Shown one piece after another: positions 1,451 to 63,902 of a DNA stretch of 64,000 bases. Under the pieces are notes generated by a model. The model worked only from the letters and a program-made list of their open reading frames with translations. It ran no database searches and had not been told where the DNA came from. The position numbers and the translations under genes are program-made. Position 1 is the stretch's first letter, and every line of letters begins with the position of its first letter. Source of the stretch: Natronorubrum sediminis (GTDB taxonomy: Archaea > Halobacteriota > Halobacteria > Halobacteriales > Natrialbaceae); the NCBI RefSeq assembly GCF_900108095.1, contig NZ_FNWL01000002.1, positions 1,144,691-1,208,690 of the forward strand. The letters are read 5' to 3'.

Positions 1451-2101
1451 GTGATGGACGATACGGGCGAGAGACGGGACGAAAGCGACAGCGATCGATC
1501 GACGGCAGCCGTCCTGATCACCGTGGTGGTCGTCCTCGTCGCGTTCGGGTTGACGATGGCGATCGTGGGGGCCGGATTTTCACCCGGCGACGGCTCTCCG
1601 GAGACGAACAGCAGCGACGAAAATCCGATAGACGGCGGTGAGGACGACTCCGAGGACGAACCGGTCGACCTCGAGGAGGAACTCGAGAACGTTACGGACG
1701 ACGAGAACGGCACCGACGGGCTGGATAGCGTCGGTATCGACGACGACGCGGACAACGAGACTGACGACAACGCGGACACGGACGGGAACGAGACCGACGA
1801 CGATGACGCAGACGATGCACTCGAGGAGGAGAGCGATGACGATGCCGAGGATGACGCAGACGACGCGGACGAGGAAGATGCTGACGACGTGGACGGAGAT
1901 GAGACGGACGACGGCGACACCGATGCATCGGACGATGACGCGGACGATGATGCCGACGCAGACGATGGTGACGACGCGGACGACGACCAGGCCGACAGCG
2001 TCGACGTGGAAGACGACGATGACGCTGACGAGGACCAGAGCATTCTCGATCGTGTGACGGAGTTCTTCACCGATACGTTCTCATTCGGTGACACGGAGTA
2101 A
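1451..2101 (+). CDS. Asp/Glu-rich membrane-anchored protein of unknown function
   Basis: 216 residues, starting at GTG 1451 or the ATG directly after it at 1454. A short charged N-terminus is followed by one hydrophobic segment (about residues 20-44, TAAVLITVVVVLVAFGLTM...). The remaining ~170 residues are almost entirely Asp, Glu, Ala, Asn and Thr, with DDADDAD-type repeats, ending in a short non-acidic tail (ILDRVTEFFTDTFSFGDTE). It looks like a type II membrane anchor with a long, highly negative, probably disordered extracellular or lumenal tail. No enzymatic domain is visible. The opposite strand has an equally long open Ser-rich frame, but the acidic reading is the expected haloarchaeal one. 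Function unknown. Confidence 0.7.
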   Translation: MMDDTGERRDESDSDRSTAAVLITVVVVLVAFGLTMAIVGAGFSPGDGSPETNSSDENPIDGGEDDSEDEPVDLEEELENVTDDENGTDGLDSVGIDDDADNETDDNADTDGNETDDDDADDALEEESDDDAEDDADDADEEDADDVDGDETDDGDTDASDDDADDDADADDGDDADDDQADSVDVEDDDDADEDQSILDRVTEFFTDTFSFGDTE

Positions 2102-55188: not shown

Positions 55189-55269
55189 TCGCGTCCCTAT
55201 TGTCGCTCGTCAGTGTCGCGTCCCTATTGTCGCTCGTCAGTGTCGCGTCCCTATTGTCGTTCCTCGCAG
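55189..55269 (+). repeat. 27-bp tandem repeat, three copies
   Basis: The unit tcgcgtccctattgtcgctc(gtcagtg) occurs at 55189-55215 and 55216-55242 identically and at 55243-55269 with changes (gtcgttcctcgcag). It lies 51 bases upstream of the gpmI start and about 85 bases before the DCC gene start, so it may affect their promoters. Confidence 0.75.
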
Positions 55270-60928: not shown

Positions 60929-61897
60929 TCAGCAGAAGTTCTGCGTGGCGTACACCTGTCCGTCGTCGGTGAGGTGGATACCGATGCCCTGATTCTCCCA
61001 CTGGTCAGCGAGGAGGTTCTCCTCGTGAGCCGGTGAGTTCATCCACTGGTCGACGATACCCTCGCCGAGCTCCTGTTCGTCCTCGTAGTGGACGGTCCCG
61101 CGGTCGTCCGTGTCGACCGGCGTGTCGTACCACGTCTGGGCGATGTTCTCGCCGCCGACGTACCCGTTCACGTTACACTCGTACCCGGCTTCTTCGTACC
61201 TGTCTGAGACGTCGTTACCCTCCGGGTCGTCGTGGGCGAAGTAGCCGCGTTCGGCCATGTCCTCGCTGTGTGCATAGGCGATGTCACGGAGTTCGTCGTC
61301 GAACTCGAGTTCGTCGACGCCTGCGGCGGCGCGTTCTTCGTTCACCGCTTCGTGGGCGTACTGTTCGGCTGCGTCCTGATCGAAGGCTTCGTCGTCAGTT
61401 TCGTCATCGGCGTCGTCTGCGTCATCTTCATCAGCATCGTCTGCGTCGTCCTCGTCGGCATCATCTGCGTCGTCAGCGTCGTCCGCGTCGTCCTCGTCGG
61501 CATCATCTTCATCAGCATCGTCTGCGTCGTCCTCATCGGCATCGTCCTCGTCATCAGCGTCGTCGTCGATCGTATCGACCCCGTCGAGCAGTTCCTCGAC
61601 GAGCGATCCGAGGTCACCATCGAGACCGAGACTGTCGAATATCGAATCGACGACGTCATCATCGCCCACGTCCACGCTCACGTCGCTGGCGGGGGCGTCA
61701 CCGCCGTCACCAGCCTCCGACGTCGACGTTATCGTCGTATCGTCTGATTGATCGGTGACAGCTGATTGTGAAACATCGTCACTGTTGGTCGACGCGTCAT
61801 CGACCGTGCTCGAGACGGGCGCTGCGGCCCCCGCACCGATCATGCTCAGGATGAGTATCGTTGCGACTGCTGCGGTCAGTATCGATTTGTGTTTCAT
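60929..61897 (-). CDS. Secreted CAP/SCP-domain protein with Asp-rich linker
   Basis: 322 residues. An N-terminal signal-like hydrophobic segment (ILTAAVATILILSMIGAGAAA) is followed by a spacer, an Asp/Ala/Glu repeat (residues ~110-170, DDADDADEDD-type), and a CAP domain (178-322): AHEAVNEERAAAGVDELEFD, HSEDMAERGYFAHDDP, GGENIAQTWY, HEENLL, with the His/Glu tetrad of CAP proteins. Cys241 and the final Cys322 probably form a disulfide. Function unknown; CAP proteins are often extracellular lipid- or protein-binding factors. A shorter paralogue is next to it. Confidence 0.88.
   Translation of the reverse strand: MKHKSILTAAVATILILSMIGAGAAAPVSSTVDDASTNSDDVSQSAVTDQSDDTTITSTSEAGDGGDAPASDVSVDVGDDDVVDSIFDSLGLDGDLGSLVEELLDGVDTIDDDADDEDDADEDDADDADEDDADEDDADDADDADDADEDDADDADEDDADDADDETDDEAFDQDAAEQYAHEAVNEERAAAGVDELEFDDELRDIAYAHSEDMAERGYFAHDDPEGNDVSDRYEEAGYECNVNGYVGGENIAQTWYDTPVDTDDRGTVHYEDEQELGEGIVDQWMNSPAHEENLLADQWENQGIGIHLTDDGQVYATQNFC
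61398..61570. repeat. Minisatellite in the Asp-rich linker
   Basis: The linker DNA is built of short tcatcgtc/tcgtcggc-type units. A longer ~39-base unit beginning cttcatcagcatcgtctgcg recurs 78 bases apart (about 61428 and 61506). Such codon-scale repeats can expand and contract, so the length of the linker may vary between strains. Confidence 0.6.
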
Positions 61898-62237
61898 CCG
61901 CAGTATATTTCACGAGAGATACGACAATAGTAACAGACCAGCTACCGCTCAGGATGAAAATCGTAGCCGTTGGACAGTCCCTGTTAGCGATGCGCACCGA
62001 TAGTTGAACGACTGAAACGTACTGTACTCTGGCCGTTCTCACCGTTCGTCGAATCGAAATCGCGTGTAGGTTTTCGATGCGATGAATCTCAGCGGGACGA
62101 GAACGTCGTCCGAGGTCGCTGCAAAACCGCCTCGGTATCGACGTCACGTTGTACAACGCGTTCGAGCAGTGATTGCTTCGCCGTTCTAACGGACAGACTC
62201 GAGAGAGGCGTTTCCGATTGCACTAGGAGGTGACGCG
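61898..62237. other. 340-bp spacer between the CAP genes
   Basis: Nothing gene-like is supported here. The promoter of the upstream CAP gene on the minus strand lies just right of 61897 in an AT-richer region (gtatatttcacg at 61911-61922). Confidence 0.4.
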
Positions 62238-62822
62238 TCAACAGAAGTTCTGCGTGGCGTACACCTGTCCGTCGTCGGTGACGTAGACGCCGATGCCCTG
62301 GTTCTCCCAGTGTTCGGCGAGGAGGTTCGCTTCGTGGCCCGACGATCCGAGCCACTGGTCGACGACTCCCTCGCCGAGTTCCTGTTCGTCTTCGTAGTGG
62401 ACGGTGCCGCGGTCGTCAGTGGCCACCGGCGTGTCGAACCACGTCTGGGCGAGGTTCTCGCCGCCGAGGTAGCCGTTGACGCTGCACTCGTATCCCGCGT
62501 CCTCGTACCGGTCGAGGAACCTGTCACCGTCCGGGTCTTCGTGGGCGAAGTAGTTACGCTCGACCATATCCTCGCTGTGAACGTACGCGACGTCTCGGAG
62601 TTCGTCGTCGAACTCGAGTTCGTCGACGCCTGCGGCGGCGCGTTCCTCATTTACGGCGTCGTGGATTGCCTGTTCGACGTCGTCGATGTCGACAGATTCG
62701 ACCGACTCGTCGGTGTCCTCGGTCGCACTCGAGACGGGTGCTGTAGCCCCAACACCGATCAGGCTTACGACGAGAATAGCGACGAGTAGTCCGGTTCCGA
62801 TCGATTTCGATTGTCTCCTCAT
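62238..62822 (-). CDS. Secreted CAP/SCP-domain protein, short paralogue
   Basis: 194 residues from ATG 62822 (MRRQSKSIGTGLLVAILVVS). A signal-like helix (11-30), a short acidic linker, then a CAP domain (54-194) that is clearly a paralogue of the larger neighbour: HDAVNEERAAAGVDELEFDD, HSEDMVERNYFAHEDP, GGENLAQTWF, HEANLL, and Cys113/Cys194. Both proteins end identically in DDGQVYATQNFC. It lacks the long Asp-rich linker. A tandem duplication of one gene is the best explanation. Confidence 0.87.
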   Translation of the reverse strand: MRRQSKSIGTGLLVAILVVSLIGVGATAPVSSATEDTDESVESVDIDDVEQAIHDAVNEERAAAGVDELEFDDELRDVAYVHSEDMVERNYFAHEDPDGDRFLDRYEDAGYECSVNGYLGGENLAQTWFDTPVATDDRGTVHYEDEQELGEGVVDQWLGSSGHEANLLAEHWENQGIGVYVTDDGQVYATQNFC

Positions 62823-63269: not shown

Positions 63270-63902
63270 TTACTTCGAAAGGAGACCGTTATAGAATCCT
63301 GACACCTCGGCACTGATCGCCGTACGGTTTCCGGAAAAGAAGTGATCCCCAGCCATCGACGAGACGGTGTCACCGCGATCTCGCGCTCGTTCGACCACGG
63401 GTTCCCACTCCACGGTCGAATCGCGTTCACCGTAGAGTATCTGAACGGGACACTCGAGTGACTCGAGGGCGGCAACGACGTCGAGATCAGGTGCGATCCG
63501 TGCTGTCGGTGCGAGTGCGGAGACAGCGTCGGGATCGGTGTCTGGGGCCGCGAGCAGCGCCATACTCGCTCCGAAACTGTATCCAAAGACGCCGACGGGG
63601 AGCGATTCACATTCGTCGCCGCTCGCGCCGTCGAACCGGTCAGTGTCTCTGGCCCAGCGAATCGCGTTTCGTACGTCCTCGCGTTCGCCGTAGCCGTCGT
63701 CCCACTCGCCGTAGTCGAATCGTAAGCAGGCGATTCCCGACTCGCAAAGCGCCTCCGCGACGGCGACGAGTCGTGCGTCTCGACGCGACCCACCGTGTCG
63801 TGGGTGCGGCGGGCAGGCGACGACGACGGCGCGTGGCTCGTCGTCTGGTTCCTCGAGCGTCCCGCGGACGTCGCGGCCGCCGGGGATCAACACGTCGGTC
63901 AT
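63270..63902 (-). CDS. Alpha/beta hydrolase (dienelactone hydrolase-like)
   Basis: 210 residues. The nucleophile elbow reads GVFGYSFGASMAL (GxSxG as GYSFG), preceded by RAVVVACPPHPRHGGSRRDARLVAVAEAL (HG-type oxyanion segment) and LRFDYGEWDDGYGEREDVRNAIRW. The catalytic Asp and His can be expected in YGERDSTVEW and AGDHFFSG. The family is general; esterase or related hydrolase activity is possible. Confidence 0.85.
   Translation of the reverse strand: MTDVLIPGGRDVRGTLEEPDDEPRAVVVACPPHPRHGGSRRDARLVAVAEALCESGIACLRFDYGEWDDGYGEREDVRNAIRWARDTDRFDGASGDECESLPVGVFGYSFGASMALLAAPDTDPDAVSALAPTARIAPDLDVVAALESLECPVQILYGERDSTVEWEPVVERARDRGDTVSSMAGDHFFSGNRTAISAEVSGFYNGLLSK

Follow-up and report, generated by a model that had tools for sequence, protein, structure and literature searches.

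A tandem pair of secreted-type CAP proteins in the haloarchaeon Natronorubrum sediminis, one with an acidic N-terminal extension of variable length

The CAP family is very widespread yet little understood. Examples of surface CAP proteins that carry stalks or low-complexity regions, PrgA and Pry3, have already been described. Enterococcal PrgA (6z9k, 6z9l) has a CAP-type domain that is held away from the cell, and this protease domain is reported to sit on a ~40-nm stalk (PMC10588982). Yeast Pry3 combines a CAP domain with a long low-complexity region, a Ser/Thr-rich stretch of more than 600 residues, and its effect is reported to depend on the conserved His/Glu cluster (PMC7340583). BB0689, an outer-surface CAP lipoprotein of Borrelia burgdorferi (4d53), was reportedly tested for lipid binding and no lipid ligand was found (PMC11784157). 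DalA, a divisome lipoprotein of Rhodobacter, is described as binding peptidoglycan (PMC10470522). A further relative is the extracellular SCP-domain protein of Bacillus anthracis, which is YkwD-like and has been solved as 4ifa. Haloarchaea are not known to make peptidoglycan. Matches to the CAP profile PF00188 are widespread among them (227 of 391 sampled Halobacteria genomes), yet the papers listed by our literature searches included no study of an archaeal CAP protein, in agreement with an earlier note on this DNA, which had called the function of archaeal CAP proteins unknown. In one paper (PMC11641113), "cap domain" denotes the top of an S-layer protein.

The window, by which we mean the whole stretch of DNA analysed (64,000 nucleotides of Natronorubrum sediminis), holds two neighbouring CAP genes, here called A and B, on contig C2 of a 3.78-Mb genome (Table 1). 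Both match PF00188 (74.3 bits for gene A and 64.1 bits for gene B, against a cut-off of 21.1), their proteins are 77% identical over 153 residues, and both end in DDGQVYATQNFC. The two are thus new members of the known CAP superfamily and, as the earlier note had proposed, tandem paralogues; neither their identity, nor the tree, nor the synteny described below points to divergence beyond paralogy. The nearest NCBIfam models are those of spore YkwD (TIGR02909; 64.8 and 66.5 bits) and of DalA (NF052539; 41.5 and 53.2 bits), and these scores fall far below the curated cut-offs of 171 and 200 bits, so that the likeness to DalA is a weak profile similarity. Judged by eye, both N-termini resemble Sec signal peptides and suggest that both proteins are exported.

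Table 1. Features of the CAP locus in the N. sediminis window (window coordinates unless residues are given).
Feature	Position	Strand	Basis
HerA/DUF87-like ATP-binding protein, flanks the CAP pair; neighbour conserved in L024, L029 and L030	59016-60902	+	
Gene A, 322-aa secreted-type CAP protein (P0001) with long acidic N-terminal extension	60929-61897	-	ATG start
Gene A CAP domain, residues 174-322	60932-61378	-	Pfam match and AlphaFold2 model
Gene A Asp/Ala/Glu tract, 59 aa	61391-61567	-	composition and TRF
Spacer, 340 bp, gene B stop to gene A start	61898-62237		
Gene B, 194-aa secreted-type CAP protein (P0002) without acidic extension	62238-62822	-	ATG start
Gene B CAP domain	residues 46-194	-	Pfam match and AlphaFold2 model
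Alpha/beta hydrolase (Hydrolase_4), conserved neighbour on the opposite flank of the CAP pair	63270-63902	-	

The AlphaFold2 model of the gene B protein, built from 24 aligned sequences, has a mean pLDDT of 85.7, with most of residues 46-194 above 90, and comparison with solved structures shows it to be the canonical CAP alpha-beta-alpha fold. Its closest structure is 4ifa (VIA-align Z 20.7, rmsd 1.3 over 124 residues), followed among the others by BB0689 (Z 18.3), SAV1118 (Z 16.4) and GAPR-1 (Z 14.7); PrgA lies at Z 9-10. The first 44 rows of this search, mostly CAP proteins, range from Z 8.7 to 20.7, while unrelated rows reach 4.6 at most. 4ifa is also the best sequence match and has the GEN and S.GH.N.L motifs in common with the window proteins, although its N-terminal region differs from theirs. 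BB0689 is likewise a stand-alone surface CAP domain, but as a lipoprotein. In the model of the gene A protein, residues 174-322 form the CAP domain, while residues 1-173 are modelled with low confidence and without secondary structure, which suggests that the region ahead of the CAP domain is disordered, low confidence being a hint of this and no proof. The Asp-rich tract described in the earlier note is real, but it is no linker between domains: apart from the signal peptide, it belongs to an N-terminal extension that is predicted to be disordered (residues 1-173). Gene A shares with Pry3 the combination of a CAP domain and a long low-complexity region, whereas PrgA, which is linked to conjugation, has a stalk anchored in the cell wall and no acidic, disordered tract.

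Six residues of the CAP domain, H82, H94, C113, E122, H163 and C194, are found in all 30 haloarchaeal CAP rows (23/23 secreted-type and 7/7 membrane-type), and each of these 30 family-level domains has exactly two cysteines. At the level of the class, 30 loci were surveyed; two without an ORF and two apparently in the wrong frame (L080, L090) were left out, and in each of the 26 that read cleanly the CAP region contains two cysteines. In 15 bacterial relatives (a set without 4ifa), the C113 position is never a cysteine and no cysteine follows the terminal Phe/Tyr motif; these relatives also lack the haloarchaeal insertion after GEN. C113 and C194 probably form a disulfide that is special to haloarchaeal CAP domains. 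Going by the family motif, H94, E122 and H163 would correspond to the CAP cavity site, equivalent to the H-E-E-H cluster, although no classical second Glu stands out; E146, the nearest candidate, is absent from 6 of the 7 membrane-type rows. An apparent invariance of HSEDM.ER in the bacterial rows was discarded as an artefact of the search pattern.

The tract itself spans residues 111-169 of gene A and consists of 38 Asp, 13 Ala, 7 Glu and 1 Thr. At the DNA level it is covered by a tandem array (about 61401-61564, periods of 81 and 42 nt) with a best TRF score of 255, the strongest in the window, where the next-best array scores 142. When the tract was permuted among synonymous codons, keeping protein and codon counts, the score averaged 142 over 150 permutations and peaked at 248, never attaining 255, and 150 permutations of codon order came no higher than 209. 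Hence, the tract is a repeat of the DNA, beyond a protein of low complexity, and its coding by a minisatellite, as first read from the bare sequence, is borne out; low-complexity coding as the sole source of the array is ruled out by the synonymous permutations. Elsewhere in the window, positions 55189-55259 hold 2.6 tandem copies of a perfectly repeated 27-bp unit (TRF score 142), and a second acidic low-complexity protein is encoded at 1454-2101 (+), with a hydrophobic segment close to its N-terminus, a long D/E-rich repeat region and a short, amphipathic-looking C-terminus (ILDRVTEFFTDTF).

The length of the region ahead of the CAP domain was followed among relatives in the family. A search with gene B as query matched 26 of 125 genomes at E <= 1e-38, a threshold that sets this count. 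Six of them (G038, G039, G041, G058, G059 and G111) were dropped from the length counts, since by their sequences and the tree they have only membrane-type CAP genes; the length set comprises 23 secreted-type genes from 20 of the 125 family genomes, with one genome per species in the collections. Pre-CAP length was taken from the end of the hydrophobic run to the start of the CAP domain, a uniform but approximate rule. It amounts to 19-28 residues in 5 genes and 100-256 residues in the other 18, while the CAP domain keeps to 146-151 residues. The short forms are gene B, its orthologue in the sister species (G003) and three genes of the genus Halostagnicola, and they are nearly constant in length between close relatives (19/19, 28/28). 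All 18 long extensions are acidic in composition (28-47% D+E).

Among close relatives, pre-CAP length changes far faster than the CAP sequence. In one genus (g10), lengths of 230 versus 183 and 155 residues occur at 97-98% CAP identity, in another (g16) 230 versus 210 at 98.7%, and gene A and its counterpart in the sister species differ by 153 versus 148 at 92.5%. The tract length thus does vary between species, as the earlier note had expected, and the constancy that would have spoken against it is ruled out by the range of 19 to 256 residues and by these changes between close relatives. In 8 of the 18 long forms TRF found arrays scoring at least 100; another 6 gave weaker arrays, and the remaining 4 gave no array. 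The best arrays of the eight have periods of 81, 54, 24, 66, 66, 66, 66 and 45 nt, each divisible by three. The repeat units differ in sequence by lineage (DDADED-like, DETDDTAG-like, a 22-residue D/T/S unit, DDSSETD-like), and therefore the arrays arose more than once, although the four 66-nt arrays of g16 may stem from one event. These changes in length have the appearance of ordinary slippage in a weakly constrained tract. The CAP gene of N. sulfidifaciens (G006; L007/L031) has no usual start codon before its signal-like segment, possibly owing to a frameshift or an assembly error, and its length is less certain.

At least one CAP match was found in each of 10 genomes of the genus. The N. 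sediminis genome has a third CAP gene (C2:175434-175916; L002/L023), which is 44% identical to gene B and carries an N-terminal hydrophobic segment; this third, membrane-type kind was found across the genus. The ORF beside it resembles a YihY-type membrane protein. Other Natronorubrum CAP genes are 52-57% identical to gene B, and no HerA/DUF87 or hydrolase neighbour was seen beside them; the CAP gene of L025, for instance, lies among other genes. Independent tandem CAP pairs occur in two genomes of another genus (g2; L105, 1058-3079, and L106, 1093-2661), with GENIY/GENIF or AENIY motifs and N-terminal regions that differ. At L107 (G023:C1:227000-234000), the CAP match lies inside an open frame of 2292 codons, so that either a very large protein with a CAP domain or an unread frame is possible. 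In viral contigs, a scan returned 15 pattern matches but no relative, and a viral origin was rejected on this basis.

The sister species has the same CAP pair at the same place, and a single CAP gene lies between the same two neighbours in Natronolimnohabitans (L030, long form) and in Halostagnicola (L029, short form). In the CAP tree, the four genes of the two sister species fall into a 100/99 clade with these two single-copy genes and two further Halostagnicola-genus genes (g9). Given that orthologues are 93% identical in nucleotide sequence between N. sediminis and its sister species while paralogues are 82-84% identical, the duplication took place before the two species split. The pair is thus a tandem duplication at one syntenic locus that predates the split from the sister species. 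After its signal peptide, gene A resembles G108_1 and three g10 genes (DVSQS...), so of the two architectures the long one is probably the older, and the short gene B has most likely lost its acidic tail. Gene B also evolves faster than gene A, with a dN to the outgroup G108 of 0.17 against 0.10. If gene B did lose its extension, the short forms of Halostagnicola would represent a second, separate loss, a point that the tree does not settle. Fixed differences between the paralogues, compared with differences between the species, give a borderline, uncorrected Fisher p of 0.044 for a rise of dN/dS after duplication.

The explanation towards which we lean overall, if only slightly, joins a long-form ancestor, a tail-less copy B, an extracellular CAP pocket and a spacer or solubility extension that drifts in length by slippage. 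The ancestor at this locus would have consisted of a signal peptide, an acidic disordered extension and a CAP domain; gene A would keep this form, while gene B would have shed the extension and accumulated changes more quickly. The CAP domain, probably held together by the putative C113-C194 disulfide, would act outside the cell through a pocket of conserved His and Glu residues (H82, H94, E122, H163), a candidate divalent-metal site that may bind or cleave a surface polymer or protein. The extension would provide a hydrated polyanionic spacer or solubility tail, keeping the CAP domain off whatever the N-terminal part touches, and its length would drift by repeat slippage within limits set mainly by reading frame and acidity. 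Its exact length most likely matters little. A hydrophobic patch ahead of the acidic tract is visible in all 18 long forms, but it stands out against composition-matched shuffles (<0.05) in only 5 of them, so we make no claim of a conserved amphipathic anchor, and the spacer role is a proposal; no anchor motif was seen by eye in the gene A extension.

Could the repeat number instead be tuned, so that it governs the reach of the CAP domain through or past the S-layer, in the manner of the PrgA stalk or the Ser/Thr-rich region of Pry3, with a stalked A and a compact B acting at different sites? The coexistence of long and short forms in both species with the pair would fit, as would the large length changes at 97-98% CAP identity, and long regions outside the CAP domain have been described for the surface proteins PrgA (PMC10588982) and Pry3 (PMC7340583). 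However, the Ser/Thr-rich region of Pry3 was reportedly not required for the effect assayed (PMC7340583), the AXA-type end of the signal implies cleavage and hence no evident anchor for the far end, and the lengths of 100-256 residues do not converge on a set value. Furthermore, between N. sediminis and its sister species both genes are under purifying selection, and the tract-less gene B is under the stronger (omega 0.067, against 0.21 for gene A) and is kept in both species. Hence, the CAP domain does not need the tract, and nothing speaks more strongly against a fine tuning of length than the tighter constraint on the copy without the tail. The suggestion in the earlier note that varying repeat length could tune surface exposure or the binding of ions finds no support here, and we regard a tuning of reach by repeat number as unlikely.

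At the other extreme, the extension may be a by-product, in which haloarchaeal acidic bias and slippage inflate a dispensable tail that adds only solubility in high salt. The five short-form genes manage without it, and both unit sequence and copy number vary among lineages. That 18 of the 23 genes nevertheless keep at least 100 residues of acidic composition indicates that loss is not random drift alone; this retention is the strongest evidence against pure neutrality, and makes a mere by-product improbable.

A third possibility concerns the age of the pair rather than the role of the tail: A and B may predate the genus, with B the orthologue of the Halostagnicola short form, A that of the Natronolimnohabitans long form, and the likeness of their CAP domains due to gene conversion. 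Sites at which the paralogues of one species agree number 4, against 0 in the control pattern, and include an adjacent two-base change near the 3' end (window 60932-61000 and 62241-62310), where both N. sediminis copies have a Gly codon and both copies of the sister species an Asp codon; this shared change is a weak hint of gene conversion, and four sites are too few for us to claim it. Gene B and L054 both start with MRR..KS, and the support that joins the four genes of the two species is moderate (87/86, not starred). Still, the tree does join A with B, 47 informative sites group the orthologues against these 4, and each outgroup locus has one gene, so that an origin before the genus appears decidedly unlikely. 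Least probable, in our estimation, is the boldest proposal, that haloarchaea use a length-evolvable polyanionic tether on surface CAP proteins, with stalked and unstalked paralogues, derived from a single duplicated gene, at two envelope depths and slippage in the in-frame repeats supplying heritable changes of reach.

Taken together, the points of some interest are that a long and a short form occur naturally side by side, that in-frame arrays have originated repeatedly in the same region, and that haloarchaeal CAP domains share a cysteine pair. The pair amounts to a natural experiment, in which each cell has two similar CAP domains, one with and one without an acidic extension, in two sister species, and with it the part that acidic low-complexity extensions play in the secreted proteins of halophiles becomes testable. 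Haloarchaeal CAP proteins can be sorted within the frame given by their two-cysteine signature and by the duplication at one syntenic locus. Should the tract prove to be without function, the pair would still show cleanly how repeats drive length drift next to a conserved domain.
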